This document shows positions 4,505 through 62,435 of a DNA stretch of 64,000 nucleotides, in pieces; position 1 is the first letter of the stretch, and each line of letters starts with the position of its first letter. Below the pieces are notes generated by a model, which saw only the letters and a list, made by a program, of their open reading frames with translations, searched no databases and was not told the origin of the DNA. The DNA is from Zingiber officinale (taxonomy: Eukaryota; Streptophyta; Magnoliopsida; Zingiberales; Zingiberaceae), in the NCBI RefSeq assembly GCF_018446385.1, contig NC_055988.1, positions 161,708,209-161,772,208 on the forward strand. The letters are read 5' to 3'. A program made the translations under genes and the position numbers.

Positions 4505-5824
4505 TGTAAGAACCCCAAGGTAGTTTTGATGTGATTAACCAAGTCAGGTTATGTCCTGTTGGTATTTAACCCTTATGTCTGAGTGTGAAGGAACTTAGAA
4601 GTATAGGAAGTCGGGCAAAAGATGCAGCTAGCAAGAAAGACAGCACATGAGAGAGCCGACAGGCTCAATGTGTCCGAGATATGAGATGCTGCGGAAGAGT
4701 ATGCCGACGAATGAGAAGGAGGCGCGCGGCGTTTCAGAAGGAAGAGAAACCGGAGCGGAAGTTTGCTCGAAGGCTAGAAGTTGGGTTCGGGTGAGCCTTA
4801 TTCTGAATGACCGAGATCACCCAAGCGGAGCCGGAGCCGGAGCCAGAGCGGAAGACCCGGACCTAAGCAAGTGGAGTCGAAGCGAAAGAACTCGAACCAA
4901 ATAGTTGACATGATCTTAACTTGGATCCGAGCGCCTGAAGCAAGCTTTTATTCAAAACGCGATGTGGCACGTTCTGTTGCGACGGGGATAAAAGTTTATC
5001 CCCTCCCAGGCGCCTATAACCCTTTCAGGCTCCCCCGACTAGGGCTATAAATATAACCTTGGTCCCAGGAGCTAAAAAATAACACTTATGATTGATTCCT
5101 ATTCAGTTCTATTATGTAATCTAGTACTTTAGTTGTTGTAAAGAGGCTTCTTCTCCTGAAAGAGAGTTTAGTGAGCGTTCAACTTCCTTGGATTAACAAC
5201 CTCCCCGATTGTAACCAAGTAAATCATTTGTGCCTCTTCCTTTCTTTATTTAAGTCTCTTATTTCTTTTATGCAAGTATTGATTATTATTAAGCTGTAAA
5301 GCGCGAGGAAGGTTTGTTTTTCTTTGTAGGGCTATTGACCACTCTCTACCCGACCGCTAATAGGACTAATAGTTGACTTTCTGGTCAGGGCGTTCGGAGC
5401 AGGTTTTTATCTGAAACGTGATGTAGCGCGTTCTGTTGAGATAGGGATAAAAGTTTATCACCCCTAGATGCCTGGAACCCTTCCAGGTGCCCCGACCAGG
5501 GTTATAAATATAGTCCTGCTCCCAAAAGCTTAGATAAAACATTTGTAATCAATTATTTTCTTGTTTAGCTTTGTATTTGTGTGCTTCAATATTGTGAGAG
5601 GCTACTTTGCCCAGAGGAGAATCTTAGTGTGCTTTTCAAGGTCTTGGATTTGCAATCTCCTGATTGTAAACTAAGTAAATTCGATGCCTCCTTTTCTTAA
5701 TTAGTTTCTGAATTCCATTTATGTAAGTATTAGTTTTAATTACGCTGTAAAGCTTGAGAAGGGTTTGCATTTTATTTTTGTAGGGCAGTTGACCCCCCTC
5801 TTGCTGGCCGACAAGGGTCCTACA
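4505..5824 (+). repeat. 3' LTR of element 1, with a duplicated right half
   Basis: The LTR runs from TGTAAGAACCCC to GGTCCTACA. Its first half matches the LTR starts of D and E. A TATA box (CTATAAATATA near 5044) follows a GGCGCC-containing stretch. The right half is present twice: about 4903-5370 and 5371-5824 align unit for unit (the TAGTTGAC start, the GGGATAAAAGTTTATC block, a TATAAATATA box, the pyrimidine-rich end). The second copy has its own TATA box near 5505. Confidence 0.72.
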
Positions 5825-5829
5825 TTATT

Positions 5830-6914
5830 GGTCCGGAAATATAGTAGCATTTTGCTCCAAAACCTCCAAGAACTGGTGGAAAGAATCCTCTTTGAAATCC
5901 CCTTTATATGGATGTTGTTTGAGCTTAAAAATGCCTCCCAATCGATTGGTTTTATCCCCAATCGATTGTCACATCAGATCCGATTGTTCAAACCTATAGA
6001 ACAGCTATTTTTCACTTGATCAATCAATTAGTGAGTCACATCAATTGATTACTTAGCCTCCAATTGATTGCCCCAATTGATTCTGAGAGCCGTTGTTTGC
6101 TAAAAATAAGTTAATCAATAAATTGTTTGTCGCCAATCGATTGCACCAATAGATTCTGAAACCTTCTATTCTCTCGCGAAAGCACTATCAATCGATTGGT
6201 GATTTCTTCGCCTTTTGTGCTCTCGAAATAAGCTCTCAATCGATTATTTTGGGCCAATTGATTTCCTAACCATAAACCCTGAATCTAAGTTTAGGGTTTA
6301 CCAATCAATTATCACCTCTCGTCAATCGATGGCAACCCTAAATTCAGCCTTTTCAAGGTTAAATTCACATCTTGCTTGGTATATGATTGTCGTCAACCTG
6401 CTAGGACTTCCTCTGCTCAACATCCAGTCATTCATGACCTGTTGAGACTTTCTGTTGCCTAATATATGATCAACCTTGACTTATCGAGACTTTCTCCTCA
6501 AGTGTCTGATCAACCTTTGACCCACTTGGACTTTCCTCTTGTCAACTTCCTGTTGGACTTTTAATTACTAAGTGTCTGGATCTTCTTAACCCACTTAGAC
6601 TTTTCCTTGCCAGTTTTCCATTGGACTTTCGATCAGCAAGTGTTCATTCCTCTGTGACCCACTTAAATTTTCCCCGGCCCTTACCAATTTTTCATTGGAC
6701 TTCCGATCACCAAGTGTCCGGTCCTCCATGACCTCCTTGGACTTTTGCCTTGCCAACTTCCCATTGAACTTCTGGTCACCGTCAAATATTCGATCAACTT
6801 TGACCTACTTGACATCTTACTAACATATTCATCAAACATCAAAAAAATCAAACTCGAGTCAACTCAAATTTAATCAACCTAGTCAACTTTGACCCAAGAT
6901 CAATTGAATCAATA
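5830..6914 (-). repeat. Left LTR (biological 3' LTR) of element A, truncated
   Basis: It aligns with the right LTR from about 18463 on. It carries about ten copies of CAATCGATTG-type palindromes between 5937 and 6345, then a CTTGACCCACTTGGACTTT-like repeat block (about 6380-6830). On the minus strand the palindromes lie upstream of a TATA-like site near 5900. The boundary is placed where sequence changes to the reverse of a polypurine tract (TCTCCCATTTTTT). Confidence 0.7.
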
Positions 6915-8733
6915 ATCTCCCATTTTTTATGTTTGACAATATATTTCAATTAGACTAATTTATTAGCTTAATTTCTTTCTTCTCATGCCAAAGCATGAAT
7001 GCGAGTTTTCTAACTTAAACCCTACAATCCTCCTTTTGACACACATCAATTTTTTTTTAAAAAAAAATTATTCATCTTAACCTTCCAATATCTGAATGGA
7101 GGTTTTCTATCTCTCATTGTTTCTAATACTCCACCTTAAGCATTTAACCATTATCCTTCAAGATTTACTCTTTCTTACCTAAATCATGTCTTTAAGGTGG
7201 TCCTCCCTCTCAAAATATACTCCATGTTCAATCATTGTACCAATAATGATTTAGAGTTCCTAAAGTTTTAGAAAATCTCAAAATTTAAATCATAAGGTTA
7301 AAAATTCAACTTTGAATATAAACCTCCTCCTCGATTCCACATTATTCTTCTTTAACTATCTCTTTCTTATTTTCATCATGAAAATTACTCTTAAATACTT
7401 ATCCAAGCAATTAAGAGGATTAGGAATAGTTAAATTACTTAAACATGACTTAATTAACTGAATTAAAATCATTTTAGTCAAAATTAATAGCTATCAATCG
7501 ATTAATATCAATTACCAATCGATTGCTACCTGAGCTAATCGACTGGTGTTGGCTACCAATCAATTGATGCATGTATCAATTAATTGGTAATAGTGGTTAA
7601 TCAATTGGTGTGTCTGAATTTTCAACTCAATTTCAGACCAAATTTCATAAATTCATAAGTAATTCTATGATTCTAAAAAATAATAAAATTTCATGTAAAT
7701 ATTACTTATGTCACGTATTATCAGTGAAAAATAGATTTATATGAAAATATATTTTATTTTCAAAGAATGATACAAAATTGAAAACCATCGAAAATTTTAA
7801 TATTTCACTCTAATTTTTATATCTAACTAATCTATAGTAATTTCTATTAACAAATAGACTTCATCAAAGTTTTTCAAAATAATTTTGAAATGATTTTTAA
7901 AAATAATTCCCAATCATGATCTTTGAACTAAATGCATATGACTTATACATTAACTTTCTCCATGATTAACCAATACAAAATCTATATATTTTAATTTCAT
8001 GAAACTAAAGCTCATTTTGATACATCAATTGCATCTTGAACTTAGTTCGTCATCATAATGTCTCACTTGTTTTTAGTATGTATCAATGCACAAGTAAGTT
8101 GGCCCAATAGTTTTTGTGAGATGTGTGAATTGGTTTTCTTTAAACTAAAGGATCATGCATTTTTAACTAGACATTTTAAACTTGATCATTCTACATAGGA
8201 TGCCAACTAAGGTCTTGGTCCTTAATTTCAAAAAGGTTTAAAGTTTATGCATGTGAGTATGACATATATCCAATGCATATTTTCAAAAGAAAAACTATCA
8301 TAACTTAATTATGCATGTATGATAGGACATGTAGCTTTGTTCATAACAATATAAAGGTATAATATGATGTCATGGCATGTGATATAGCACACAAACATGG
8401 TTGTTATAGCACATAGGAAAATACCTAGATTTGTTATCTAAGTTTCAATAACTAATCATTATGTCAAAATCATGATTTGACATAGATGGTTCTATCTTCC
8501 TCGAATGTGCCAAAGTCCCAAGTTTGACACACTCTTGACTTCTATCTTATGTTGTCAATTTGATTAATATCAATACCTCAAATTTTTATTGGCACATTTT
8601 AAATTCTTCAAGAGTAAAAATCAACTTCTTATTTTTAAGATGTCTCGATATCTTAAAAAAGCTCTTGAATGCCAACTTTACCATAGTTGGGTTAGCTACC
8701 CTACCAATTAGGGTTGGCATACTTTATACCCAT
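6915..8733 (-). other. Internal post-gag region of element A
   Basis: This AT-rich DNA has no supported gene. It starts, on the minus strand, after the gag tail and ends at the polypurine tract next to the left LTR. A few CAATCGATTG-like palindromes recur at 7495-7615, outside the LTR, just as the palindrome of element B recurs beside its LTR. Confidence 0.5.
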
Positions 8734-10545: not shown

Positions 10546-10875
10546 GACCGATCAGGCTCCAACCTGATCGGTCCACACTGTCCCTGATCGGTCTTGGGGA
10601 CCGATCAGGCTAAGCCTGGACCGATCAGGCTATGTCCTGATCGGTCCAGGAAGCCCTGATCGGTCCTGGGGACCGATCAGAGCTTCCTCTGATCGGTCTA
10701 GGGACCGATCAGCATGCATGTCCCTTCCTTTTTCTCCCGAACTTCTTGCCTTCTGATCGTTATATCCTGATCGGTCTGCAGACCGATCAGATAACACTCA
10801 GTAGGCTACTGTTTGGTTACTGATCGGTCACCAGACCGATCCAGATACCCAATGTATCACTGGATCGATCCACTG
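10546..10875. repeat. Palindrome array CTGATCGGTCC / GGACCGATCAG
   Basis: More than ten alternating copies of CTGATCGGTCC and its complement stand in the U3 of element B, directly upstream of its minus-strand TATA box. Neighbouring copies can pair as hairpins. The right LTR has a shorter version at about 16036-16345, which shows copy-number change since insertion. The last units turn into GGATCGATCC. Confidence 0.85.
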
Positions 10876-11136: not shown

Positions 11137-11490
11137 TTGCCCGGCTTCACTCACCAGGACTTTCACCTAGCTTCACTCACTTGGATTTTCACCTAGCTCC
11201 ACTCACTAGGATTTTCACCTGGCTTCACTCACCAGGATTTCCAATCTGCCCGGCTTCACTCACCAGGACTTTCCAACTGCCTGGCTTCACTCACCAGGAC
11301 TTTCCCACTGCCTGGCTTCACTCACCAGGACTTTCCCACTGCCTGGCTTCACTCACCAGGACTTTCACCTAGCTTCACTCACTAGGGTTTTCACAACTGC
11401 CTGGCTTCACTCACCAGGACTTTCCCACTGCCTGGCTTCACTCACCAGGACTTATCCGTCTGTCTGGCTTCACTCACCAGGACTTTCCAC
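11137..11490. repeat. Tandem array of a CTTCACTCACCAGGACTTT unit
   Basis: About a dozen degenerate units of roughly 24-31 bp, each with GGCTTCACTCACCAGGACTT and a short variable join (CCACTGCCT, CACCTAG). The equivalent array in the right LTR is at about 16596-16916 with fewer units. Confidence 0.85.
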
Positions 11491-11648
11491 ATCCGGTCCA
11501 GAGAACGAGCTACCAAGCCCTCTCTGACCACATTTCGGGGAACGAGCTACCGAGCCCTCTCCGACTTCCATCCGGTCCAGAGAACGAGCTCCCGAGCCCT
11601 CTCTGACCACAGTCCGGAGAACGAGCTACTGAGCCCTCTCCGACTTCC

Positions 11649-11945
11649 CATGTGCCAAGCTTCCATACTTGGACTTCTCCGTGCCAAGTCTCCATACTTG
11701 GACTTTTCCCGTGCCAAGCTCCCTGCTTGGACTTTTCACCATGCCAAACTCCCTGCTTGGACTTTTCACCATGCCAAACTCCCTGCTTGGACTTTTCCCA
11801 TGCCAAGCTCCCTGCTTGGACTTTTCACCATGCCAAACTCCCTGCTTGGACTTTTCACCATGCCAAACTCCCTGCTTGGACTTTTCCCATGCCAAGCTCC
11901 CTGCTTGGACTTTTCCCGTGCCAAGCTCCCTGCTTGGACTTTTCC
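11649..11945. repeat. Tandem array of a 30-bp unit (TGCCAAACTCCCTGCTTGG)
   Basis: About ten head-to-tail copies of a 30-bp unit of the form TGCCAAGCTCCCTGCTTGG plus ACTTTTCACCA. Because 30 is divisible by three, all frames stay open and give ten-residue protein repeats; I do not take these as genes. The same array in the right LTR is at about 17076-17372. Confidence 0.88.
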
Positions 11946-12178: not shown

Positions 12179-13865
12179 GATGTTTGACAAAACTCATAAT
12201 CAAACTTAGGTTTTCTAATGTTCTTCCTTGAACATTCTCCCCAAACCTACACTCTCCCCCTTTTTGACACACATCAAAAAGAGTGAATCAAGGTCAAGAG
12301 TTTCTTTCTAATGAAGGTCCCATACTTTTCATTGAAACCCTTAATTTCCCCCTTGATACTAAGGTCAACAATTAACTTAGTGATAATCCCATATCACTCA
12401 AGTCTTTAGGAGTAAAAACTCCCCCTAAAAGTCAACTCCCCTTGACTAATAGGTAAAATTCCCCCTAAAGGTCAACTTCCACTTGACCATTGCACCAACA
12501 ATGTCTTGGAGAGTTTCAAACCTTTAGAAATCCAAAACACCAACTTCATTGCTGAAATTTTAGAAATTTCAGACAGCGCAGTCGAAACTGGCACGCCCTG
12601 ATCGGTCACCAGACCGATCAGGTCTTCCCTGGATCGGTCACAGTGACCGATCCACAACTGCCTGGACCGATCAGACTCCCTTCTGATCGGTCCACAACCT
12701 CTGATATCAGTTTCTGAATTTCTTTCCGAAATTCAGAAACCCCTACAAAATTCCAGAAAATTCCAGAAATTATAAAAACTTTGAGGATGCATTCCTCATA
12801 ACATATACTATCAAGGAAAAATAGTTTTCTATGAAAATATCTTCCATTTTTCAATCTTGATACAAAGTTCAAAAGTCTTTGAAATAGCTCAAAGTTAACT
12901 CATTTTTGTATCACTTTGCTCAATGATGAGAGCTATCACTAGAAAAGCTTCATCAAGGTTTTTCAAATCAATTTTAAAATGATTTTAAACCCTTTAATTT
13001 GGGACCACAATCTTAAGGCTAAATGTACATGACTTGTACACAAGCTTTCCCTATGATCCCCAATTAGAATTAGGCTCATCTAGGTACAAGAACTATGCAC
13101 CTTGATCATAACTCACAATCCTAATATCTCACACACATCTAAGGTGTATCAAACACATCCAAGTCAATTTTGATGTGAGATATGAGTTTAGGTTAGCTTA
13201 ATCTAAGTTCTCATGCATTTTTCTAAATAACAATTTGATCTCCATATCAAATTGTGTTTTAGTCCTTAAATCAATTTCATTGATCATTAATGCACAAGAT
13301 GATGACATGGCATATAATTTTATCATAAATGGAAACATGTGCCAATGTCATGATGTCATGGCATAAAGTATGAAACTTAAATAAATTATGACATTTAACT
13401 AACCTAAGCATTATCATGACATTTTAAATGATCATAAAATAAATATGATGTCATGACATGGCATATGGCAAACAATACATGACAAATAATATATAAAGGT
13501 ATAGAAAATACCTAATTCTAGCCTTAGTTGCCATTTTTGATAATTTTGATCATTTTGTCATAGGTTATATATTCCTAAGTGTAATAGACCTAGCATCTTA
13601 TACCAAAGATTTTTAGATCACTATGTGCCAATTAGATTGACTCTAGGAAATTCCTCAAATTTGATTGGCACATTCTAATCACCTTAGGAATAATTCTTAA
13701 TTTCATTTTCAAGGCTTGATTATACCTTGAAAAATCCTAAAGTGTCACCTTTTGCCATGATTAGGTTAACTACTTATTCAAGTAAGGTTGGCACACCCTA
13801 ACTAATCTAGCATGATGAAATCACGCTCCTAGGAACCCAATACCTATTGGAGCTCATTGGGTTCA
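12179..13865 (-). other. Post-gag region of element B
   Basis: No gene is supported in this stretch. At 12597-12700 it carries a second, smaller cluster of the GATCGGTC/GACCGATC palindrome that is otherwise in the LTR. It also has several GTCATGACAT-like repeats at 13310-13480. Confidence 0.55.
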
Positions 13866-15336: not shown

Positions 15337-15348
15337 GCTCTGATACCA
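15337..15348 (-). other. Primer-binding site of element B
   Basis: On the minus strand this reads TGGTATCAGAGC, the sequence used by many plant Copia elements for initiator-Met tRNA priming. It is two bases from the end of the right LTR. Confidence 0.88.
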
Positions 15349-15350
15349 CT

Positions 15351-17592
15351 TGTTAGGATCGTCGTACTCGGCTAGAGAGGGGGGTGTGAATAGCCGACCC
15401 CAAATTCTTCGCGTTTCTTCCTACGATTAGGGTTAGCGCAGCGGAAATAACTAAATAGAAACGCAAAAAGGAAAGATCAAACCTCAAACTCGAACTCGAC
15501 GATGTAACGAGGTTCGGAGATGAAACTCCTACTCCTCGGCCTGTCCGTAAGGTGGACGAAGCCTATCAATCCGTCGGTGGATGAGTCCCCGGAAAATCGG
15601 CTAATAAGAACTCCTTCTGGGTGGAGAAACCTCACCACAAACTCTTGCAACAGCAAGATCAGAGTACAAGTACAAGAAGCACAGCAAGATACAAATATAA
15701 AGATGAATGTAACAACTCTTGCTTGCCTTCTCGTCGTCGACTGAAATCTGTAGATGAAGCACCAACTTCACAGAATCACAGCAGCAGCTGAAACCAGTCG
15801 AAGAAGTCGAGGAAGCTCACGCGAAGCTTCGGAAGCGAGCTTAACAAAGCTCTAGAACAGCAGAAGCAATAACTTGTAGAAGCAAGAAGATCAAGAAGAA
15901 GCAGAAGCTTCGGAGAGGAAGAAGAAGATGACTGTAGCAGCCCTCGATCTCCTTTTATAACCTGCATCCACCTGCGAAGAAGAAGCCAGAAGACAGCAGA
16001 AGACAGAAGACCGTTGTGAGCCAACGGATAGTTCTGGACCGATCAGGCTCCAACCTGATCGGTCCACACTGTCCCTGATCGGTCCACACTGTCCCTGATC
16101 GGTCTTGGGGACCGATCAGGCTAAGCATGGACCGATCAGGCTATGTCCTGATCGGTCCAGGGACCGATCAGCATGCATGTCCCTTCCTTTTTCTCCCGAA
16201 CTTCTTGCCTTCTGATCGTTGTTTCCTGATCGGTCTGCAGACCGATCAGATAACACTCAGTAGGCTACTGTTTGGTTACTGATCGGTCACCAGACCGATC
16301 CAGATACCCAATGTATCACTGGATCGATCCACTGATCGATCCAGAGCTTGGTTTTTGCCCAAACCAAGTCCCAAGCCTTCCAAACCAACATCCGGTCAAC
16401 CTTGACCTGTTGGTACATCATGCTTAGCATCCGGTCACTCCCTTGACCTGCTAAGACTCCCCACCAAGTGTCCGGTCAATCCCTTTGACCCACTTGGACT
16501 TTTCTCTTCGTGCCAAGTATCCGGTCACTCCCTTGACCTACTTGACCTTCTCGACACCAGATGTCCGATCACCCTTGATCCATCTGGATTTTCCCTTGCC
16601 CGGCTTCACTCACCAGGACTTTCACCTAGCTTCACTATCTAGGATTTTCACCTAGCTCCACTCACTAGGATTTTCACCTAGCTTCACTCACCAGGATTTC
16701 CAATCTGCCCGGCTTCACTCACCAGGACTTTCCAACTGCCTGGCTTCACTCACCAGGACTTTCCCACTGCCTGGCTTCACTCACCAGGACTTTCACCTAG
16801 CTTCACTCACTAGGGTTTTCACAACTGCTTGGCTTCACTCACCAGGACTTTCCCACTGCCTGGCTTCACTCACCAGGACTTATCCGTCTGTCTGGCTTCA
16901 CTCACCAGGACTTTCCACATCCGGTCCAGAAAACGTGCTACCGAGCCCTCTCTGACCACAGTTCGGGGAACGAGCTACCGAGCCCTCTTCGACTTCCATC
17001 CGGTCCAGAGAACGAGCTCCCGAGCCCTCTCTGACCACAGTCCGGAGAATGAGCTACCGAGCCCTCTCCGACTTCCCATGTGCCAAGCTTCCATACTTGG
17101 ACTTCTCCGTGCCAAGTCTCCATACTTGGACTTTTCCCGTGCCAAGCTCCCTGCTTAGACTTTTCACCATGCCAAACTCCCTGCTTGGACTTTTCACCAT
17201 GCCAAACTCCCTGCTTGGACTTTTCCCATGCCAAGCTCCCTGCTTGGACTTTTCACCATGCCAAACTCCCTGCTTGGACTTTTCACCATGCCAAACTCCC
17301 TGCTTGGACTTTTCCCATGCCAAGCTCCCTGCTTGGACTTTTCCAGTGCCAAGCTCCCTGCTTGGACTTTTCCGAGTCAGGTCAACTCACCTCGGGTCAA
17401 CCAGGTCAACCTTGACCACGGGTTGCACCCACAATCTCCCAAGCTTGTATCCTTGTAAAACATCAAGATACAACTTTTCTGTTCACGTCAAACATTGTCA
17501 AACATAACTCGTCAAACATCAAAACACAACTCGAGTCAAGTCAACTCGAGTCTGGTCAACCAGGTCAACCTTGACCTAAGGTTGCACCAACA
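15351..17592 (-). repeat. Right LTR (biological 5' LTR) of element B
   Basis: It aligns with the left LTR over its whole length. Its palindrome array (16036-16345) and CTTCACTCACC array (16596-16916) are shorter, while the 30-bp array (17076-17372) is almost unchanged. The minus-strand TATA box is near 15953. It ends CACCAACA, followed by the CCAAA duplication. Confidence 0.9.
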
Positions 17593-18086: not shown

Positions 18087-19969
18087 TGTTAAGACCCATG
18101 TGAACTAAAGGGGGAGGGTGAATAGCTCTGATCGCTTTGTCTCAATCTTGTACTTGTCATTTGAATACGCAATGAAAACCTTAATTCAAACTCGACTTCA
18201 CAAGTACAACACTTGGATTTTACTTAGTGCTACCTCCTTAAGATGACTAATCCAAGATTCACTCTTCGCTAACAACTTCTACTAAGAACTTCCTCCTTCT
18301 CAAAAATCTTTCGAAGGCGGAGAAGTCTTTTACAAGCTTAAGCACAAGAATACAACAAGAAACGAGAATGCAAAGACAAATGAAATCAAAAATGACTTTA
18401 CATTCAAAACTTTACTTTTCTTAATCTTTTGTTGCTTGGAAATGCCTCTTGTCGATTTGAAAATATAACAACACTTTACTCCAAAACCCCCCAGAATTGG
18501 CAATGAGAATCCTCCTGGAAATCCCCTTTATATGAATGTTGTTCAAGATAAAAAATGTATTTCAACTATTTGTGACATATAACTATACTCGTGAATTTTT
18601 ATCGAGTTTTGGTCTACTGCCTTTGTTTTCTGCTGCGTTAGATTTTTGTTGTGGGTTTAAGTTTTCCGTTGTATTAGTGGAGTAGGTTTTATTTAAATAA
18701 ACTGTGTGGTTGTGTCAGTCAAATGCTGAGTTAATATAAACTGCATGGATTGTTAGTTATTTTTATTGTTATTGTTCCGGCCGTGTTGGCCAAGGTTTGT
18801 GTGGCCCTGAGGGCTTTGTAGGAATGTTTTGATAGTCACCTGTACAGAGGAGATGCTGCTAAAATTTTCTCAGGCAAGGACTCCCCCGAGGCGTGACAAC
18901 TTTACTCCAAAACCCTCAAGAATCGGCAATGAGAATCCTCCTGGAAATTCCCTTTATATGAATGTCGTTCAAGTTAAAAAAATGTCTCATAATCGATTGG
19001 TCTTAACTTCAATCAATTGTCATGTCACATCTGACCATTCAAAACTACAAAACGACTATTTTTCGCCTGACCAATCAATTGGTAAGTCACACCAATCGAT
19101 TGCTTAGCCTCTAATCAATTCCAAGACCTGCTATTCACTAGGAATAAGTTGATCAATCGATCGATTGCTGCCAATCGATTCCGAAATCTTCTGTTCTCTC
19201 GAGAAAGTACTCCTAATCAATTAGTGATGCTAATTGATTGTCCCAATCAATTTCGGCGCTTTTTGTGCTCTCGAAATAAGCTTCCAATCGATTGCTTTGG
19301 GCTAATCGATTACACCAATCGATTACCCAATCCTAAACCTTGAATCTGAGTTTAGGGTTTACCAATCAATTGTCACCTCTCGTCAATCGATGGTAACCCT
19401 AAATTCAACTTTTCCAAGGCAGAATTCGCATCTTACTTGGTATCCGATTGAGCTCAACCTGCCAGGACTTGCTCTGTTCAACATTCAATCATCCGTGACT
19501 TGTTGAGACTTTTCATTGTCCAATATCCGATCAACCTTAACCTATCATGACTTTCTCATTAAATGTTCGATTAACCTTTGATTCACTTAGATTTTCCTCT
19601 TGTCAATTTTTTATGGAACTTTTGATTATCAAATGTCTGATCCTCCTTAACTTACTTGGACTTTCTTTTACCAACTTCCTGTTAGATTTTTGATCACCAA
19701 GTATCTAGTCCTATGTGATCCACTTGGACTTTTTCCTTATCAATGTCAACTTCCTATTAGACTTTCGATCATCTATCCGTTTCTCGATGACTCACTTAAA
19801 TTTTTTTTCTTATCAACTTCTGTTGGACTTCCAATGATCATTTAATATTTGGTCAATCTTAACTTACTTGACATCTTACTAATATATTGGCCGAATATTA
19901 AAATCTAAACTCAAGTCAACTCAAATTTATAACTTGATCAACTTTGGCTCGAGATCAATTGCACCAGTA
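18087..19969 (-). repeat. Right LTR (biological 5' LTR) of element A
   Basis: It begins TGTTAAGACCC after the primer site and ends GCACCAGTA, a decayed form of CACCAACA. It holds the CAATCGATTG palindrome array (18985-19400) and a foreign block at about 18557-18895. The foreign block is flanked by an 88-bp direct duplication of LTR sequence (18469-18556 and 18895-18982). Confidence 0.72.
18557..18895 (+). mobile_element. Fragment of a different LTR inside the LTR of element A
   Basis: The block is unlike the surrounding LTR. Its end (GGACTCCCCCGAGGCGTGACA) and the GTGGCCCTGAGGGCTTTGTA part resemble the 3' portion of Ty3-type LTRs, recognised from memory. It has no visible 5-bp target duplication; instead LTR-A sequence of 88 bp is repeated on both sides. 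Confidence 0.45.
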
Positions 19970-27560: not shown

Positions 27561-27627
27561 CCAAAAAATAAGAAAGCATATCATTGTCTAATTATTGGAT
27601 GGTTTTCGAATGATTTTTCAAGTTATT

Positions 27628-30620: not shown

Positions 30621-30624
30621 TGAC

Positions 30625-33930: not shown

Positions 33931-33942
33931 GCTCTGATACCA
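33931..33942 (-). other. Primer-binding site of element C
   Basis: TGGTATCAGAGC on the minus strand, two bases from the right LTR. Confidence 0.88.
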
Positions 33943-33944
33943 CT

Positions 33945-38830: not shown

Positions 38831-38834
38831 AATT

Positions 38835-42099: not shown

Positions 42100-42195
42100 T
42101 TTGTTCCCCTCTCGCTTCTTCACCTTCCTTGATCCTCCTCGGTTTGCTATAAATTGGTTCGGTCGATGGATGTGGACGGTTTAACGGCTCGGTTC

Positions 42196-42419: not shown

Positions 42420-43550
42420 GACATATCTAAATTTTTAAATTTATCAAAAAAAAAAAAAATTATTATTTATCAAGATATATGTTTTTATATATATTTTTTC
42501 TATTCTAAGTTTTTTTTTTTTTTTTACAAATTTGACTATTTTTTCATCTTTTTATTTTTTATGTCATTTCTCTTCTATTTTCTTTTTTCTTTTTTCTTTC
42601 CACTTTTTTACATATCGATTCTTCTAAAAATATTTTAAGACCCCCCAGAAATTAAAATAAGTAATGAATAACACCATTTAACTCCTTACAACTCTAGAAA
42701 TTCACAGGAATATGAAATAGATGCAATCGGAACTCTCTAGGTTCATTAGTGGGTTTTGGTCGAAATCTACTGATGAACTTAGACGAAAACTCACTGATGG
42801 ACTTAGAGAGCTCTGATTGCATCCATTTTAATTCTTGTGGATTTTTGGGGTTGCAAAGAGTTCAAATATGTTATCCATTATTTATTTCAACTTCTCAGAG
42901 GTGTTAAAATATAATAATAAAAGAATCGTCAAAATTCTCCACATTGGATCTAATATGGAATCATATCAGGCCCAACGTGGGCTTGACATGAAATGATATC
43001 AAGTCCAAGTTGGGTCTGATATGATTCCATATTAGGTCCAGTGTGAAGAATTTTGACGATTCTTTTTTATTACATTTTAACACCTCTGAGAAGTTGAAAT
43101 AAACAATGGATAACATATATAAACTTCTTGCAACTTCAGAAATCCACAGGAACTGAAATAGATACAATCGGAGTTCTCTAGGTCCATTTGTAGATTTCAA
43201 TTAAAATCCACTAATAGACTTAAAGAGCTCCAATTGCACTCATTTCAGTTCCTATGAATTTTAGGATTATAAAGAGTTAAACGGTGCTATCCATTATTTG
43301 TTTCAGCTTCTCAAATGTGTTAAAATATTTTTAGAAGAATTGACATGCAATAGAGAGAAAAAAAAAAAAAAAAAAAGAAGAAACATTGCATGCATAAAAA
43401 GAAAGAAGAAATAGAAAGATGACAGATAAAATAAAAATAAAAGTAATCAAATTTATTAGGAGGTTAAATGGAAAAACATTATAAAAAAATACATCTTTTG
43501 ATAAAAAAGAAGTATCTTTTAATAAATTTAAAAATCTAGATACATTGTTT
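42420..43550. mobile_element. Foldback/MITE element: 1.1-kb imperfect palindrome
   Basis: The left arm can be followed, in reverse complement, along the right arm around a centre near 42983. Matching parts are TCTAAATTTTTAAATTTATC (42427) with AATAAATTTAAAAATCTAGA (43519), TTCTTCTAAAAATATTTTAA (42619) with TTAAAATATTTTTAGAAGAA (43321), and GTCAAAATTCTCCACA (42928) with GTGAAGAATTTTGACGA (43031). Each arm contains a smaller palindrome (AGAGAGCTC...GCAATCGGA parts near 42690-42830 and 43140-43260). No coding sequence and no clear target duplication are seen. Confidence 0.85.
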
Positions 43551-45431: not shown

Positions 45432-46363
45432 TGTTGGACTCTGTAAGTATTTTGATGTGATCAACCAAGTTGGTTATGTCCTGCTTTATATTTGATCCCT
45501 GTGTCTGAGTGTGCAGGAGCTTAGGAGCGTAGGAAGTCGAGCAGAAAACGCAGCTAGCGAGAAGGACGGCACGGGAAGGGAGCTGACAGACTCGGTGCGT
45601 CCGAAAGACGAGAGAGCTGCGGAAGAGTACACCGGTGGGCGAGAAGAACGTGCGCGACATTCGAGGGACGTTAAGCCGGAGAGGAAGACTGCTCGAGGAA
45701 AATGCCAGGAATTGAGTTCGGCTAAGCCCTATTCCGGTTGGCCGCAATCACCCAAGTTATCGGAGCTTCGAAAGCTGAAACAAAGTCAAAAGGAGCTAAA
45801 GAGCGAGCTGTAGGCGCCTTAAAGGAAGTGCTAGAGGCGTCTGCGCAGTCCTCCACCTTGGAGGCGCCTTCAACAAGTGTTGAAGGCGCCTTCAACACTA
45901 TTGGAGGCGCCTCCAAGCTGGTCAAAATAATCGTTCGAGCACCGGATAGAATTCTTTCCACTTACCGAGTTGGAGGTGCCTTGAACCTTATTGGAGGCGC
46001 CTTGGACCCTCGGGATAGACTTTCCAGGAGCTATATAAAGGCCCCTGAAGCTAGGGATTCAATATCAACTCAGTATTCAACTCTGTAATCAATTTATAGC
46101 AGCTTGTGAGCTTTCTCAGTGTGTAAAAAGGTTTCTCTGCCTACAGTAAAGGAGACTTTCTTAGTGCGCACTTTTCATCGCCCTGAATTAACAACCTTCT
46201 TAGTTGTAACTAGGTTAACTCCCGAGTCTCTAGTTTATTTCTATTTCCTTTTTGTTTTAGTCTTATTATTGTTGCTTTTATTTTGGGTTAAAAATTCTGA
46301 GGAGGGTATATTTTATTTTTTCAGGCAATTCACCCCCTCTTGTCGGCCTCCGCTGCACCAACA
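45432..46363 (+). repeat. 5' LTR of element D
   Basis: It begins TGTTGGACTCTG and ends GCACCAACA. GGCGCC palindromes repeat at about 45811-46003 (GGAGGCGCCTTCAACA and variants), directly upstream of the TATA box CTATATAAAGG near 46032. Confidence 0.9.
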
Positions 46364-46365
46364 AT

Positions 46366-46377
46366 TGGTATCAGAGC
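46366..46377 (+). other. Primer-binding site of element D
   Basis: TGGTATCAGAGC, two bases after the 5' LTR. Confidence 0.9.
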
Positions 46378-46530: not shown

Positions 46531-47621
46531 TGTTGGACCCCGTGGTAGTTTTGATGTGATCAACCAAGTTAGTTAGGTCCTGCGTTTTGTCTGAACCATG
46601 TGTCTGAGTGTGTAGGAACTTAGGAGCGCAGGAAGTCGAGCGGAAGACGCAGCTAGCTAGAAGGACGACACGGGAAGGGAGCCGACGGGTTCGGTGCGTC
46701 CGAAGGACGAGAGAGCTGCGGAAGAGTACTCCGGTGGAGCAAGAAGAACGTGCATGACGTTCGAGGGACGAGAAGCCGGACGGAAGCCTGCTCGAGGAGA
46801 AGGTCGGGAACTGGGTTCGGGTGAGCCCTATTCCGGATGGCCACAATCATCCAAGGAGCCGAACCGGAGCAAGTCAACTGGAAGTTGACTTGTCAACGGT
46901 TCGGTCGACTGAACCTATTGATAGGTCGACCGAACCCTTCATTAACCAAAGTCAATCAGCAGCCAACCGTCAATGCCACGTCAGAAGCTGACCGTTGTTA
47001 AAGCTGATCGGTCGACCGAACCTCCTGATCGGTCGACCGAACCAAAGTTAATCCATAGACTTAGTCGAGCAAACTGATCGGGCCAACTCAGCTGGAGACC
47101 GTTGGCCGATCGATCGACCGAACATAAGGATCGGTCGACCGAACAAAAGATCATCCTCAGAGACTGCACCTGGACGGAAGACTGGGCAGGTACAGCAGGT
47201 TCGGTCGACCGAACCTGGGGATCGGTCGACCGATCCCTCTCGAGTCAAACCTGATCCCGAAAGATCAGGTGATCTGATAAGCTCGAGAACCCCTATATAA
47301 AGAGGGTCTCGGGCAGCTTTAGAGAAAAATGAAGACGAACGAAATAGCTACTCTAGTAATCATTGTTTAAGCAACTACTATGTTGTCAAAGTGTAAAAGG
47401 CTTCTCCGCCTTCTCAGAAGGAGTTTTTCTTACTGTGCTTTTCTTACTGCCCTGGATTAACAACCCTCTTGGTTGTAACCAGGTTAATTTTTGTCTCCTT
47501 TTATTTCTGTAGTTGATTTTATATTGTTGCTTTATTTTAAGAGTTGGAAAGCTTTGAGGAGGGTATAATTTTTGTCTGCAGGCAATTCACCCCCCTCTTG
47601 TCGGTCCCCGCTGCGCCTACA
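46531..47621 (+). repeat. 5' LTR of element E
   Basis: It begins TGTTGGACCCCGTGG and ends GCGCCTACA. The U3 has an array of TCGGTCGACCGA palindromes (46905-47235) about 55-390 bp upstream of the TATA box CTATATAAAG near 47292. The U5 has the pyrimidine-rich CCCCCCTCTTGTCGG end. Confidence 0.92.
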
Positions 47622-47623
47622 AG

Positions 47624-47635
47624 TGGTATCAGAGC
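47624..47635 (+). other. Primer-binding site of element E
   Basis: TGGTATCAGAGC, two bases after the 5' LTR. Confidence 0.9.
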
Positions 47636-48823: not shown

Positions 48824-48837
48824 AAAAAAGGGGGAGA
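48824..48837 (+). other. Polypurine tract of element E
   Basis: AAAAAAGGGGGAGA directly before the 3' LTR. Confidence 0.88.
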
Positions 48838-48838
48838 T

Positions 48839-49917
48839 TGTTGGACCCCATGGAAGTTTTGATATGATCAACCAAGTTAGTTAGGTCCTGCGTTTTGTCT
48901 GAACCCTGTGTCTGAGTGTGCAGGAACTTAGGAGTGCAGGAAGTCGAGCGGAAGACGCAGCTAGCGAGAAGGACGGCATGGGAAGGAGCCGACGAGCTCG
49001 GTGCGTCCGAAGGACGAGAGAGCTGCGGAAGAGTACTCCAGTGGAGCGAGAAGAACGTGCGCGGCGTTCGAGGGACGAGAAGCCTGCTCGAGGAAAAGGC
49101 CGGGAACTGGGTTCGGGTGAGCCCTATTCCGGATGGCCGCAATCACCCAAGGAGCCGAATCGGAGCAAGTCAACTGGAAGTTGACTTGTCAACGGTTCGG
49201 TCGACAGAACCTATTGATCGGTCGACCGAACCCTTCATTAACCGAAGTCAATCAGCAGCCAACCGTCAATGCCACGTCAGAAGCTGACCATTGGTAAAGC
49301 TGATCGGTCGACCGAACCTCCTGATCGGTCGATCGAACCAAAGTTAATCCACAGACTTAGTCGAGCAAACTGATCGGGCCAACTCAGTTGGAGACCGTTG
49401 GCCGATCGGTTGACCGAACATAAGGATCGGCCGACCGAACAAAAGCTCATCCTCAGAGACTGCACCTGGACAGAAGACTGGGCAGGTACAGCAGGTTCGG
49501 TCGACCGAACCTGGGGAATGGTCGACCGATCCCTCTCGAGTCAAACCTGATCCCGAAAGATCAGGTGATCTGATAAGCTCGAGAACCCCTATATAAAGAG
49601 GGTCTCGAGCAGCTTTAGAGAAAAACGAAGACGAACGAAACAGCTACTCTAGTAATCACTGTTTAAGCAACTACTGTGCTGTCAAAGTGTAAAAGGCTTC
49701 TCCGCCTTCTCAGAAGGAGTTTTTCTTACTGCGCTTTTCTTACTGCCCTGGATTAACAACCCTCTTGGTTGTAACCAGGTTAATTTCTGTCTCCTTTTAT
49801 TTCTATAGTTGATTTTATATTGTTGCTTTATTTTAAGAGTTGGAAAGCTTTGAGGATGGTATAATTTTTGTCTGCAGGCAATTCACCCCCCTCTTGCCGG
49901 TCCCCGCTGCGCCTACA
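48839..49917 (+). repeat. 3' LTR of element E
   Basis: It matches the 5' LTR with about 45 visible base changes and one 10-bp deletion (after GAGAAGCC near 49082). Palindromes lie at 49193-49530 and the TATA box near 49588. Several palindromes have lost symmetry through C-T or G-A changes (GGTCGATCGAACC, GGTTGACCG, GGCCGACCG). Confidence 0.92.
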
Positions 49918-51871: not shown

Positions 51872-53407
51872 TGTTGGACCCCGTGGGTGTTTTGATGTAA
51901 TCAACCAAGTTGGTTAGGTCCTACTTTGTGTTTGATCCCTGTGTTTGAGTGTGCAGGAGCTTAGGAGCACAGAAAGTTGAGCGGAAGACGCAGTTAGCGA
52001 GAAGGACGACACGGGAAGGGAGTTGACGGGCTCGGTGTGTCCGAAGGACGAGAGAGTTGCAGAAGAGTACACTGGTGGGCGAGAAGAACGTGTGCGGCGT
52101 TCGAGGGACGTTAAGGCGGAGAGGAAGACTGCTTGAGGAAAAGGCCGAGAATTGGGTTCGGGTGAGCCCTATTCCGGTAGACCACAATCACCCAAGTTAT
52201 GGGAGCTTCGGAAGCTGAAACAAAGTCAAAAGGAGTTAAAGAGCGAGCTGTAGGCGCCTTAAAGGAAGTATTGGAGGCGCCTGCGCAGTCCTCCACCTTG
52301 GAGACGCCTTCAACAAGTGTTGAAGGTGCCTTCTAGAGCCGTCAATTTGGGTTAGGCCCGTCCCTCCAAACAATTTAAGCGGGTTGGGTTGGAATTTTAT
52401 CAACCCAAGTCCGCCGTGGGCCGACCCGCCTAGGCCCGCGACCTGCGCGAGTCGGCCCGCTCGGGCTTGGGTTGGCCCACGGGTTGAAAAATACATGTAA
52501 GCTAAGTTTTAGGCCAATTTATTATCTTTTTTTGTTATAATTTTGAAATAAAAATAGTACTTTTCATCCAACATAAGTAATCGTTTGTGTTCATTTATAT
52601 TTAAAATACATGTTTATGTATACATTTAATTGTAGAAAACTTTTTTGAAGTAAAATGTTGAAGATATGAAATATTTTTTAATTTTTTTAAAAATTTTTGA
52701 TGGGCCCGCGGGTTGGCCCGCCAAACCCGCAACCAGCCTTAGAATGGGTTGGGTTGGAAATTTCCCAACCCGCCAAGTTGGCGGATTGGCCCGCCCCGCC
52801 CCGCCAAATGGTTAGCCCGCCACAGGCCGACCCGCCCCCCCACGGGTTGGCCCGTTTGACAACTTTAGTGCCTTCAACAATGGAGGCGCCTTCAACACTA
52901 TTGGAGGCGCCTCCAAGCTGGTCAAAATGACCGTTTGAGCACCGGATAGAATTCTATCCACTCACCGAGTTGGAGGTGCCTTGAACCTTATTGGAGGCGC
53001 CTTGAACCTTATTGGATGCGCCTTGAACCTTATTGGAGGCGCCTTGGACCCTCGGGATAGACTTTCCAGGAGCTATATAAAGGCCCCTGAAGCTAGGGAT
53101 TCAATATCAACTCAGTATTCAACTCTGTAATCAATTCCTAGCAGCTTGTGAGCTTTCTAAGTGTGTAAAAAGGCTTCTCCGCATACAGTAAAGGAGACTT
53201 TCTTAGTGCGCACTTTTCATCGCCCTGGATTAACAACTTTCTTAGTTGTAACCAGGTTAACTCCCGAGTCTCTAGTTTATTTCTGTTTCCTTTTTGTTTT
53301 AGTCTTATTATTGTTGCTTTTATTTTGAGTTGAAAATTTCGAGGAGGGTATACTTTATTTTTTCAGACAATTCACCCCCCCTCTTGCCGGCCTCCGCTGC
53401 ACCAACA
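51872..53407 (+). repeat. 3' LTR of element D, carrying a MITE
   Basis: It matches the 5' LTR but is longer because of a 534-bp MITE in the GGCGCC array and extra copies of a GGCGCCTTGAACCTTATTGG unit (52975-53050). TATA box CTATATAAAGG near 53073. It ends GCACCAACA and is followed by GGAAC. Confidence 0.9.
52334..52867. mobile_element. hAT-like MITE in the 3' LTR of element D (534 bp)
   Basis: The ends TAGAGCCGTCAA and (complement) TAAAGTTGTCAA form imperfect terminal repeats. The 8-bp duplication GTGCCTTC (52326-52333 and 52868-52875) is perfect. The ends hold GGCCCGCC/GGGTTGG runs and the centre is AT-rich. The 5' LTR lacks it, so it arrived after D. No transposase. Confidence 0.92.
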
Positions 53408-55728: not shown

Positions 55729-56855
55729 TGTAGGACCGTTAGATTCGATAGAGGGGGGGTAAATATCGATTCGAAAAAACAAGAGTTTAAACGCAGCGGA
55801 AAAGTAAACGAACACAGTTGTTTTTTACTTCGTTCGGAGCCTGTGACGACTCCTACTCGAAGGCCCGTGGTCCTTGACCACTTTCGTTGGGCAATCACTA
55901 TCAATTCGAATATTACAGAGTTAAGTACAAGAATTGACAGATAAAGAAAATACCGACAATAGAATTGAAACAAAACCAGCACTGAGTCGGAGAGCTTTTC
56001 GTAGCGTCACAAGAGCACAGAGCAGCAGATCTTGGATTCTTAGTTGATATAAAGCTCCACCCTTGCCCCTTCTTTTATATGAAGCTCAGGGCGCCCCGGA
56101 TCCCTTCCAGGCGCCCTGGTGAGACGTGGCAGGTCCAACCAGTGAGCTCCACGTGGCGACGCGCAATCAGGATAAAGTTTGCCTCCCGGGCGCCCGGACC
56201 CTGTTTTCCCGCAGAATCCGTCCTGCAAGACAAACATTAGTCCGGAGGCAAATATATATCCTGTAAAACAGATTGTTAGCACAATTAAAGTTCAACAAAG
56301 TAATAGCAAAGAGTATGACTTAGATTCCGTCTTTCCGAGACCGGAATCTAGTCACGATCTCGACTTAGATATCCGAAATGGATCTAAGCCGGATCGACGC
56401 CTAATGTTCCCTTCCCGGGAACGCGTCCTCGCAGTCACTCCCCTCCAGTGACTTACCTTACTTACCTGCCAGACGTCCGGTCAACCCTTCGACCCGTCTG
56501 GACTTCTCGCCAGCTATCCGGTCAGCCCGTCGACCTAGCTGGACTTCTCGCCAAGCGTCCGGTCAGCCCGTCGACCCGCTTGGACTTCTCGCCAGTTATC
56601 CGGTCAGCCCGTCGACCTAGCTGGACTTCTCGCCAAGCGTCCGGTCAGCCCGTCGACCCGCTTGGACTTCTTGCCAGCTATCCGGTCAGCCCGTCGACCT
56701 AGCTGGACTTCGTGCCAGACATCCGGTCAGCCCGTCGATCTGTCTGGACTTTTCCTGCACACTTGATCAAAGTGTCAGACAACAACACAACTAACTTAAC
56801 CTATTTGTCATTCATCAAAACCTGGGTTAGACCGTTAGTGCTACCCGCACCAACA
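55729..56855 (-). mobile_element. Solo LTR inside the gag of element F
   Basis: It runs from TGTAGGACCGTTAG to GCACCAACA with a perfect duplication GTAGG (55724-55728 and 56856-56860). A minus-strand TATA box (CATATAAAAG near 56070) is followed upstream by GGGCGCCC palindromes (56088-56205). Further on is a tandem array of a CCGGTCAGCCCGTCGACC unit (about 56470-56750), about 62 bp per pair of units. Confidence 0.9.
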
Positions 56856-59065: not shown

Positions 59066-59979
59066 TGTTGGTCCCGGTAGTGGCCAGCTAAAAGGGGGAG
59101 GATAGCCCTGCAATCAAAAACAAACCTTCCTCGTTCTTTATAGTGTAATTAAATCGAACACTTGCATAAACAAAGTAAATAAACTAAAAGGAAGAGACAC
59201 AACAAATTACTTGGTTACAACCGGGGATGTTGTTAATCCAAGAAAGATAAAAGCTCAGTAAACTCTCCTTCAGGCGGAGAAGCCTCTTACAGCAGTTGAC
59301 GCACTCAATTACAACTCATAACTCAAGATGGATCAATCATAAGTGTTGTGTTATATTTCCTAGGTCCAGAGGTCATTTTATATTTCCTGGAAAATCTTAT
59401 CATGGGCCAGAAGGCGCCTTCCATAGGGTTGGAAGGTGCCAGTGGATAAGAGTTTATCCACTGCCAACAACAAAATCTGCTTAGTTGAAGGTGCCTTCCA
59501 TAAGGTTGGAAGGCGCCTTCGTACTGTTCATCGAAGGTGCCTTCCATCCATGGAAGACACCTTTCACAGCGAGGCGTGGAGGCGCCTTCAATTCCCTTCG
59601 AAGGTGCCTCTAGCAGTGTTTCCAATTTCCTTTTGCTCTTTTGCTGCTCCAATTGCCTCAGTGATTTCAGCCAGCCGGAATAGGGCTCACCCGAACCCTT
59701 TTTCCAGCCTTCTGCTCGAGCAGTCTTTTGCTCCGGCTTCTTGTCCCTCGAATCGCCACACGTGTCCTTCTCGTCTGCTGGTATACGCTTCCATAGTACC
59801 TCGTCCCTCAGACACACCAAGCTTGTAGGCTCTCTCCCGTGTCGTCCTTCTCGCTAGCCGCATCTTCCGCTCGACTTCCTGTGCTCTTAAGCTTCTGCAC
59901 ACTTAGATATAGGGTTAAACACCAACAGGACTTAAACTGACTTGATTGATCACATCAAAACTATCACGGGGTATCAACA
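59066..59979 (-). mobile_element. Solo LTR in element G
   Basis: It starts TGTTGGTCCC and ends GGGTATCAACA, flanked by ATAAT (59061-59065) and ATAAC (59980-59984), a 5-bp duplication with one change. GGCGCC palindromes (GGAAGGCGCCTTC type, about 59405-59610) lie in the U3 for the minus strand. The left half has the CTTGGTTACAACC and GGCGGAGAAGCCTCTTAC parts seen in element C. Confidence 0.82.
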
Positions 59980-59984
59980 ATAAC

Positions 59985-61059: not shown

Positions 61060-61400
61060 GATAAAGTTTGCAAGAATATCATTGACAATAGCAATTATGA
61101 GAACGTAATATCCGTTGAGGCTGTCAAAAATTACAACTAAAGACAGATCGTCATCATAAACCCTATAAATTATCCTAGCTAAATAAAGAAAGTGATCAGG
61201 TAACAGTAGACCGGCGATGTCTCATTTCCTTTTTAATGGAAAATATTTTGATAGCGTGTAGTATGATGTGGTGGTCATGGATGCATATCATGTATTGTTG
61301 AGGCAACCTTGGCAGTATGATCGTAGTACTATTCATGATAGGAGAAAGAATACCTATACCCTTAAGGCCAAGGGAAAAAAAAACTTATGTTAGCGTTGCG
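61060..61400 (+). pseudogene. Ty3-type protease-region relic of element G
   Basis: Pieces such as YENVISVEAVK, YFDSVYYDVVVMDAYHVLL and WQYDRSTIHDRRKNTYTLK match the stretch after the active site of Ty3 proteases, in the order expected after gag. The catalytic D-S/T-G is decayed. The frame is cut by element H. Confidence 0.62.
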
Positions 61401-61487
61401 GCGGAAAGGAAATACTCCAATTCTGGTATCTAAAAATACTAAAAATGCTTTCTATATCCAGGTTTCTAGATGAAGTGGAGCATGAAG

Positions 61488-62435
61488 TGTTGGTCCCACT
61501 GGAGGCTGGTAAGAGGGAAGGGGTGAATTGCCCTACAAAAATTAAATCACAAACCTTTCTTGGATATTCAATTAATTTAAAAGAACTTGTAAAAATAAAC
61601 AAAAGAGACTAATTAGAAACAAATTCAGACACAGAGGGTTTACTTGGTTTGTAATCAGAGGATTGCTAAATCAAGGCAAAGATGACGCACTATCTGATTC
61701 TCCTCTGGGCGGAGTAGCCTCTTACAGCGTTGACAGTACAAAAGAATAGAAAGCACAAAGAAAATGAATTACAAGTTGGTTGAGTTAATTGTGCAGATTA
61801 GTGCTATATTTATAGCACTGGTCGGGGCGCCCCGAAGGGGTTTCAGGCGTCCTGGGGGGATAAAACTTTATCCCCCAACATTCAGATCGCGTTAGAATCG
61901 ATCTGGTTAAAAACTTCATCCCGGGCGCCCGGAAGGGTTCCGGGCGCCCCGGGCTGCTCCGGGCGCTCGGAAGGGTTCCGGGCGCCCCGAGCTGCTCCGG
62001 CCACCCGGAATGGTTTCGAGCACCCCGGGCCTTAAAGTCAACAAAAGTTGACTTTTTCGTCTTCGGTTCAGCTCGTCTCGATCCGGGTCTTGTTCGCTCC
62101 GGCTCCGCTAGCTTGGGTGATCTCGACCATCTGGAATAGGGCTCACCCGAACCCAAGTTCCGGCCTTCTCCTCAAGCAGCCTTCCTTCCCGATTTCTCGT
62201 CCCTCGAACGTCGCGCACATTCTTCTCGTCCACCGGTGTACTCTTCCGCGGTCACCTCGTCCCTCGGACGCACCGAGCCCGTCGGCTCTCTCCCCGTGTC
62301 GACCTTCTCGCTAGCCGCGTCTTCCGCTTGACTTCCTGTGTTCCTAAGCTCCTGCACACTTAGACACAAGGGTTAGACAAAACAGGACATAACTTAACTT
62401 GTTTGATCACATCAAAACACCTTAGGGTTCCAACA
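61488..62435 (-). repeat. Left LTR (biological 3' LTR) of element H
   Basis: TGTTGGTCCCACTGG to GGGTTCCAACA. The minus-strand TATA box is GCTATAAATATAGC near 61803. GGGCGCCC palindromes follow upstream (61823-62030), some changed to GGCCACCC. The outer part carries CTCGCTAGCCGCGTCTTCCG. Confidence 0.88.

Follow-up and report, generated by a model that had tools for sequence, protein, structure and literature searches.

Just upstream of their TATA box, long terminal repeats (LTRs) of Copia-type retrotransposons in Zingiber officinale carry arrays of a short dyad-symmetric word that differs from element to element, and one of these words, GGCGCC, keeps the same fixed distances to the TATA box in two lineages whose LTRs cannot be aligned with each other in that region. 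We describe these arrays in a window of 64,000 nucleotides (NC_055988.1:161708209-161772208, the whole stretch of DNA analysed) and in LTRs sampled from the same assembly (3.09 Gb, 211 contigs), to which all genome-wide counts refer. The elements are Sireviruses by their sequence hallmarks, and the arrays are probably promoter-proximal rows of dyad-symmetric protein-docking sites in U3, the unique 3' part of the LTR, acting at the level of DNA. Window elements were delimited by self-comparison of the window together with junction contexts and motif scans, which gave five elements, A to E, and several partial or solo LTRs: F (about 4.5-5.8 kb), H and those at 55729 and 59066. A 5 or 3 after an element letter denotes its 5' or 3' LTR; numbers preceded by L denote sampled genomic LTR loci, beside which B5 of the window is written wB5.

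A TATA-like box lies downstream of every array block except that of C3, in which the TATA is mutated (TATGAATA, against TATAAATA in C5) and the anchor was placed by hand. Element A, on the minus strand, carries ATCGAT in its 5' LTR (18992-19391; TATA 18958; eight copies in 400 bp, p=0.003) and 3' LTR (5941-6330; TATA 5908; hexamers p=0.003, dyads not enriched). Element B, also on the minus strand, has GATCGGTC/GACCGATC arrays in its 5' LTR (16037-16300; TATA 15959; 10 dyads against 0.7 in shuffled sequence) and 3' LTR (10546-10841; TATA 10468; 11 against 0.9); its motif is a gapped dyad, GATCGGTC-N4-GACCGATC, and not a hexamer palindrome. The long LTRs of B (2.2-2.3 kb) also contain, in the upper U3 and adjoining the dyad array, tandem arrays of 26-37-bp units (11143-11945 and 16597-17373). 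GTCGAC is the word of E, on the plus strand, with seven copies in the 5' LTR (46904-47230; TATA 47294), six of them in the form GGTCGACC, and a further array in the 3' LTR (49200-49526; TATA 49590); the half-site of E's CGGTCGACCG equals that of B, with the gap absent.

GGCGCC occurs in C5 (34312-34451, minus strand) at 37, 114, 152 and 171 bp before the TATA at 34280, with GACGTC in the 17 slot, and in three copies in C3 (31812-31855, minus). D5 (45813-46001, plus) has it 36, 126, 147, 169 and 219 bp before the TATA at 46032, and D3 (52885-53043, plus) 36, 78, 168 and 189 bp before that at 53074. The corresponding distances are 17, 115, 134 and 172 bp in H (61826-61986, minus; TATA 61814), 16, 36 and 115 bp in the solo LTR at 55729 (56090-56194, minus; TATA 56079), and 36, 135 and 204 bp in that at 59066 (59413-59586, minus; TATA 59382). 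F contains one GGCGCC (5009-5014, plus), 37 bp before its TATA at 5046, and no array. Smaller clusters lie inside two elements, in the linker: two ATCGAT upstream of the 3' LTR of A (7497-7523, minus) and six half-sites of the B dyad in B (12600-12692, minus). Between these copies and the 3' LTR, the position at which ENV would lie, no open reading frame (ORF) of at least 150 amino acids was found.

We compared the 400 bp upstream of TATA in 14 window LTRs with 300 dinucleotide shuffles, using two tests per LTR and uncorrected p values. Palindromic hexamers and/or dyads were enriched at p<=0.04 in 13 of the 14; in F neither was. A3 was enriched on hexamers only, and B5 and B3 on dyads only because the B motif is no hexamer palindrome; the solo LTR at 55729 gave p=0.003 for hexamers and p=0.10 for dyads. 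No palindromic hexamer reached more than two copies in the 400 bp downstream of TATA. An earlier note on this stretch had placed a cluster of one short palindrome just upstream of TATA in the readable LTRs. The place is borne out, its positions coincide with ours, and the blocks of A5, B5, C5, D3 and E3 can now be added to it; a single short palindrome describes A, C, D, E, H and the solo LTRs, but not B with its gapped dyad. The smaller inner clusters that it reported in A and B are real.

Sireviruses are very numerous in the genome. The exact junction CAAGTGGTATCAGAGC between 5' LTR and primer-binding site (PBS) occurs 42,470 times (21,213 + 21,257; the reversed word never) and the second form, CAATTGGTATCAGAGC, 35,172 times (reversed control, 1). 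As a genomic sample we took the first 70 places of the CAAGTGGTATCAGAGC junction, fetched blind to U3 and all from a single contig, within its first 6 Mb. The palindromic hexamer count exceeded all 50 shuffles (the smallest possible p, 1/51) in 46 of these LTRs and did not in 24. The top words of the 46 were ATCGAT (23), CGATCG (8), GGCGCC (7), GTCGAC (6) and AT-rich words (two), and arrays of the four named types were present in 44 of the 70 LTRs. Among 75 LTRs, dyads were densest, at 3.75-5.04 times the level of shuffles, in the stretch 500-800 bp from the LTR end; internal regions likewise exceeded shuffles, by 1.2-2.8 times. ATCGAT reached 20.9 copies per kb in the block and 0.16 elsewhere (23 LTRs, grouped by the word itself), GGCGCC 5.86 and 0.06 (22 LTRs, grouped by gag), and GTCGAC 10.1 and 0 (4 LTRs, chosen by word). 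Density in the block is far higher than in shuffled sequence or other LTR regions, the comparison that the earlier note had proposed. The ratio of observed to expected CpG was raised in the block relative to upstream U3 for ATCGAT (1.20 vs 0.26) and the B type (1.15 vs 0.59); the GGCGCC block showed no such enrichment (0.88 vs 1.18).

Assignment of words to the sampled loci was occasionally doubtful. The ATCGAT copies of L060 lie at least 0.9 kb away from the LTR end and are possibly those of a neighbour, and the GTCGAC copies of L077 sit far upstream on a 41-bp tandem repeat; a GTCGAC-bearing 41-bp tandem repeat is also present inside or beside an LTR of the window (56476-56751). Fifteen LTRs were labelled as having no assigned word; among the nine of them examined at the GGCGCC slots, eight keep at least one exact or one-base-variant site. 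L038, L041, L059 and L064 have none of the listed words.

The fixed addresses of GGCGCC, counted from the T of TATA, are 16/17, 35/36, 114/115, 133/134, 152 and 171 bp. They were compared between lineage X (C-like; TATA CTATAAATA; 11 LTRs, restricted to those with at least three exact sites) and lineage Y+Z (L005/L020-like; TATA CATATAAAAG; six LTRs), which we count as two independent lineages and not three because clades Y and Z share an LTR. Address agreement between them was 0.57, against a mean of 0.05 and a maximum of 0.16 for random placement, and none of 197 shifts reached 0.57; the bases outside the sites matched at 0.26-0.28, the chance level, and BLASTN of the three X-Z pairs tried gave no aligned piece longer than 35 bp. 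L073, whose LTR is related to that of Z (74%), has three addresses exact and two off by 2 bp. A count over 900 bp labels five of the 11 LTRs in the Y+Z cluster as GTCGAC, but in the 10 that have a TATA no copy of this word comes within 330 bp of it.

The grid was then applied to LTRs not used to set it, namely six window LTRs and five held-out loci; among the 20 held-out loci only these five had GGCGCC within 330 bp together with a TATA match, and L079 and L091 (GGCGCC, no TATA match) were left out. Exactly on the grid were 24 of 35 sites, against 5% expected. The remainder were at 169 and 150 in L073, 150 in L075, 163 and 139 in L088, 172 in H, 135 in the solo LTR at 59066, 37 in F, and 189, 168 and 78 in D3. 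The 171 slot had been visible earlier but was missing from the predefined grid, and C3 and D3 have partner LTRs in the first set; without the slot 23 of 35 sites are on the grid, and without these two LTRs as well, 19 of 28. A binomial p would overstate independence because several of the test LTRs belong to the same families. When the first and held-out sets were pooled (32 LTRs) and the best match within about 2 bp was taken at each of four slots, 74 of the 128 cells were exact and another 24 differed by a single base; the seven two-base variants include two symmetric double changes (GACGTC, GGTACC), a weak indication. Genome-wide, GGCGCC-N(0-30)-CTATAAATA is found 24,208 times and its reversed form 110 times; among the 100 matches listed, 53 stand at 17 bp and 27 at 36 bp, and 96 lie within 1 bp of either address, these copies being largely of one lineage and one LTR being able to contribute two rows. 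GTCGAC in the L024 group (5 LTRs) has other addresses, the commonest being 34/35, 54/55, 107/108 and 127/128.

These regularities do not extend to one fine architecture for all words, which we rejected as cross-word address agreement was 0.04-0.23. Thus, of the earlier proposal that architecture is kept while the motif turns over, the gross place holds; the fine addresses differ among words, and also in the GGCGCC of D. Phasing on one face of the helix was likewise rejected: over 61 positions the resultant was 0.87 at the best period, 19.5 bp, and 0.34 at 10.5 bp.

Repeated-motif (RM) boxes, palindromic and upstream of TATA, have been described in Sirevirus LTRs with the words of 13 elements, and extra RM boxes in the linker of ENV-bearing members; that work could identify no common factor for the boxes (Bousios 2010, BMC Genomics 11:89, PMC2829016). 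Judged by the sequence, the arrays of the window are Sirevirus RM arrays, a feature already described and not new as a kind, because the window elements carry the Sirevirus PBS junction, polypurine tract (PPT) with attachment site, C-rich tract and TATA. The junction, sought as CA-A(T/G)TGG-TATCAGAGC, is exact in B (CAAGTGGTATCAGAGC, 15337-15352, minus), C (33931-33946, minus), D (CAATTGGTATCAGAGC, 46362-46377, plus) and E (47620-47635, plus), and inexact in A (18073, minus; two mismatches) and at 58937 (plus; one mismatch). The PPT, sought as AGGGGGAG followed by AT/TG at the 3' LTR, is exact with its attachment site in E (AGGGGGAGATTG, 48829-48840, plus), has one mismatch in B (12163, minus), C (32385, minus), D (51862, plus) and H (62434, minus), and is degenerate in A. 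Multiple PPT octamers precede the 3' LTR of E (48630, 48654, 48829) and B (12254, 12419), and besides the variant terminal PPT there is one octamer nearby in C (32522) and one in D (51625). The integrase signal near the LTR 3' end was scored by the C-rich tract alone and not by the 19-bp motif; the tract reads TTCACCCCCC in E5, E3 and D3, TTCACACCCCCC in B5 and B3 and TCACCCCC in D5, and is weaker in A and C.

The RM boxes of the 2010 paper (PMC2829016) resemble those of the window in being palindromes of the upper LTR upstream of TATA, mostly with a word particular to each element, and in having linker copies. Its words include CGGTCGACCG of a Vitis element, which is that of E, CGGTCTGACCG of Osr10, which is the B half-site, and ACAATCGATTGT of Tnd-1, which is A-like. 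A CGG-CCG core is given there for every RM but that of Tnd-1; in the window it is present in E (CGGTCGACCG), B (CGGTC-N4-GACCG) and the CCGGGCGCCCGG boxes, whereas D (GGAGGCGCCTTC) and A (AATCGATT) depart from the published signature. Linker RMs accompanied by ENV are a trait of ENV-bearing members and do not define the genus. Unlike that account, in the parts seen, four word types are compared here within one genome and GGCGCC has fixed TATA addresses. The titles and abstract openings of the literature searched contained no TATA-anchored addresses for Sirevirus boxes; subscription papers and supplements lay largely outside that search, and such addresses may be in print elsewhere. Within the papers seen in part, TATA-anchored GGCGCC addresses in two unalignable lineages go beyond the published RM description.

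We consider it probable that the arrays dock proteins. Each word would be a putative site at which a DNA-binding protein of the host attaches as a dimer, as the dyad symmetry of the sites suggests, and the row would dock several copies of it near TATA, at set distances in some lineages, driving LTR transcription. A DNA-bound promoter protein is favoured because the distance to TATA is fixed while the spacers are free. Protein binding and activation, and the kind of protein, we infer from sequence. The distance from unit to unit is often 19-21 bp for GGCGCC and GTCGAC (about 21 bp in the arrays of D and E) and 12 bp for ATCGAT; because a step of 19 bp falls short of two helical turns, docking would require that neighbours touch or that the row be looped.

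Such regular steps would also arise if the blocks were functionless, unstable GC-rich minisatellites growing by slippage or unequal exchange. Between the paired LTRs of B, C, D and E, gap openings are commoner in the block (6 in 888 aligned bases, against 9 in 4362 outside; small numbers, and none in the block of E), and substitution rates are alike inside and outside it, as expected of such a by-product. The spacers of X and Y+Z match only at chance while the addresses are kept, however, and the top repeated word is nearly equal on both strands, as dyad symmetry requires, in ATCGAT, B and GTCGAC arrays (less clearly in GGCGCC), whereas the top words of upstream tandem repeats are one-stranded (L020, L021, L061, L063). 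We therefore regard a pure by-product as improbable; under the docking hypothesis the same block indels could be the route by which arrays grow, shrink and homogenise.

A serious rival, if an unlikely one, is that the arrays act as RNA: read-through or antisense U3 transcripts would fold into hairpins and be diced to small RNAs, the block serving as a silencing target or decoy and word turnover as an escape from cross-matching small RNAs. Bousios et al. reportedly identified the palindrome region of maize Sireviruses as a small-RNA hotspot in 2016. Two papers mention a small-RNA excess over these palindromes in maize (PMC5311732, PMC10760457). The maize region is, like the one described here, a palindrome-rich cis region of the LTR that varies in sequence and forms hairpins; the window words differ from the maize CACCGGACNNNGTCCGGTG word. 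Predicted RNA folding is extreme in the block: mean z in the array window is -6.5 for ATCGAT (24 LTRs), -7.0 for the B type (14) and -4.8 for GGCGCC (16). Even LTRs without an assigned word (15) have a mean of -4.0 in the part 300-450 bp from the LTR end. Folding z does not separate the hairpin from the protein idea, though, because any palindrome folds well. CpG transitions, as methylation would cause, outnumber every other kind of one-base decay at the four GGCGCC slots (10 of 24, tallied by eye) and make up 35 of 96 one-base ATCGAT variants; a broader count of GGCGCC gives 13 of 51, the single commonest variant being GGAGCC (12). Hairpins have no need of the fixed TATA distance seen in two unalignable lineages, and covariation is weak: paired cells number 97.2% against 95.2% shuffled in the ATCGAT clade and 93.9% against 93.1% in the B clade, and the E/C/D clade yields no more than 4 consensus pairs. 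The covarying flanks of ATCGAT units are likewise weak evidence, the units being related by descent.

The strong predicted folds and the extra copies inside A and B would also suit a role in the element's own nucleic acid, since the genomic RNA ends at its 3' side with U3; the dyads might serve packaging or dimerisation of the RNA, strand transfer or the structure of the cDNA. An address fixed to TATA is relevant to transcription from the 5' LTR, and we find this explanation very improbable.

Several observations weigh against protein docking. The grid is carried by only two unalignable lineages, each made up of copies related by descent, and the X set comprised only the 11 LTRs that keep at least three exact sites. 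L073 alone agrees with X at 0.49, below the best random draw of 0.51, and D-type LTRs, which fall in X's cluster by R-U5 (the LTR downstream of U3), are off the grid, agreeing with X at 0.10. ATCGAT arrays have little fixed spacing (within-class agreement 0.21), and those of the B type end 45-89 bp from TATA with no exact addresses (11 LTRs). A step of 19 bp amounts to about 1.8 turns of the helix, not 2, so that the sites would not share one face of B-DNA, and the fold energies of the blocks are extreme, as a hairpin role predicts.

Words differ from element to element at the same gross place, as the earlier note stated, and do so even between LTRs with homologous R-U5. Its further argument, that pairs with similar gag use different words, fared less well. 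The gags of C and E are indeed similar (65% of amino acids; 77% of nucleotides over 406), but the A/B comparison rests on 46 alignable residues (43%), and the LTR of E is nearer that of D: its first part is 86% identical over 327 bp to D and 73% over 275 to C, and its R-U5 73% over 255 bp to D and 72% over 105 bp to C. E may thus be a C-like gag joined to a D-like LTR, and uneven divergence instead of exchange may explain it. L035/L036, L005/L020 and L005/L044, the three pairs compared, have LTRs 82-85% identical over 920-1013 bp and gags 30-34% identical. By these alignments, LTR/gag mosaics exist among the Sireviruses sampled (L005/L035 vs L020/L036/L044; E of the window). Since gag and LTR do not go together from element to element, gag is a poor measure of change in U3; the gag argument for turnover is confounded, and we rejected gag similarity as proof of it.

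For the gag tree itself, 70 of 76 internal pieces were matched (none for L022, L041, L052, L054, L062 and one of two A pieces), giving 69 rows of only 111 columns after one A fragment shorter than 55 amino acids was dropped. Words are strongly clustered on it: the labels, 'none' among them, change 14 times, and shuffled labels 40.0 times on average. The word is thus stable within a family, and turnover lies mainly between families. E (GTCGAC) groups with C-like GGCGCC rows (100/98), its 20-row clade being otherwise GGCGCC (10), none (8) and ATCGAT (1, the doubtful L060). Turnover is also seen on LTR evidence, because clusters of R-U5 hold different words. Grouped by their last 320 bp, 95 LTRs form four clusters and four singles; one cluster combines B-type words (17) with GTCGAC (6), L024 being about 73% identical to L019 and wB5 over 284-286 bp, and a second combines GGCGCC with the GTCGAC of E. 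In such turnover U3 would either have been replaced or have changed internally. Words may change when elements trade U3 segments together with whole LTRs, and the mosaics and the small indel excess of the block suggest that arrays gain and lose units, letting a new unit spread through the row. More tentatively, Sirevirus U3 may be a modular landing array in which each word has its own spacing grammar to TATA, the word-plus-grid module being swapped with the LTR between unrelated gag lineages and so changing or escaping host control.

Element A (minus strand) is split by B, whose LTRs lie at 17592-15351 and 12164-9861 (minus); C has LTRs at 34997-33945 and 32386-31368 (minus), and D (45432-46363 and 51872-53407, plus) is split by E (46531-47621 and 48839-49917, plus). 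By subtraction the internal parts of the five elements measure about 1.2-3.5 kb, and gag is the sole coding part recognised in them, with no pol recognised in any window element. Gag ORFs of at least 150 amino acids are present in B, D and E, and tblastn matched gag in C and in a 46-residue piece of A. Pfam Retrotran_gag_2 scores 18.2 bits in E and 25.2 in D, both under the 27-bit cut-off; the first ORF of B has no Pfam match, and its zinc knuckle passes the cut-off. C has an additional repetitive ORF of 178 amino acids, without assignment. Gag-only LTR elements are named TR-GAG, and a full copia pol would be too large for these internal parts; the window elements resemble TR-GAG in their short internal region with gag alone recognised.

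Other features surround the elements. C sits within a 71-73-bp tandem array (30622-31367 and 34998-35565), adjoining which are a Retrotrans_gag ORF (36700-37812, minus) and an RVT_1 match below the cut-off (35755-36405, minus). Direct copies at 27625-28898 and 38832-40106 (1.27 kb, 90%, with 66-bp tandem repeats) are possibly LTRs of an intervening element, and 800 bp at 42580-43379 match their own reverse complement (78%), a possible foldback element. The sole host-like gene noticed is an ORF for a 2OG-Fe(II) oxygenase (41038-42180, minus; Pfam E 1.7e-34).

A word with fixed addresses makes its spacing to TATA directly testable. LTR/gag mosaics mean that trees of the coding part cannot alone explain change in the LTR promoter. 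If module swapping is true, promoter identity in these elements would evolve separately from the coding part.

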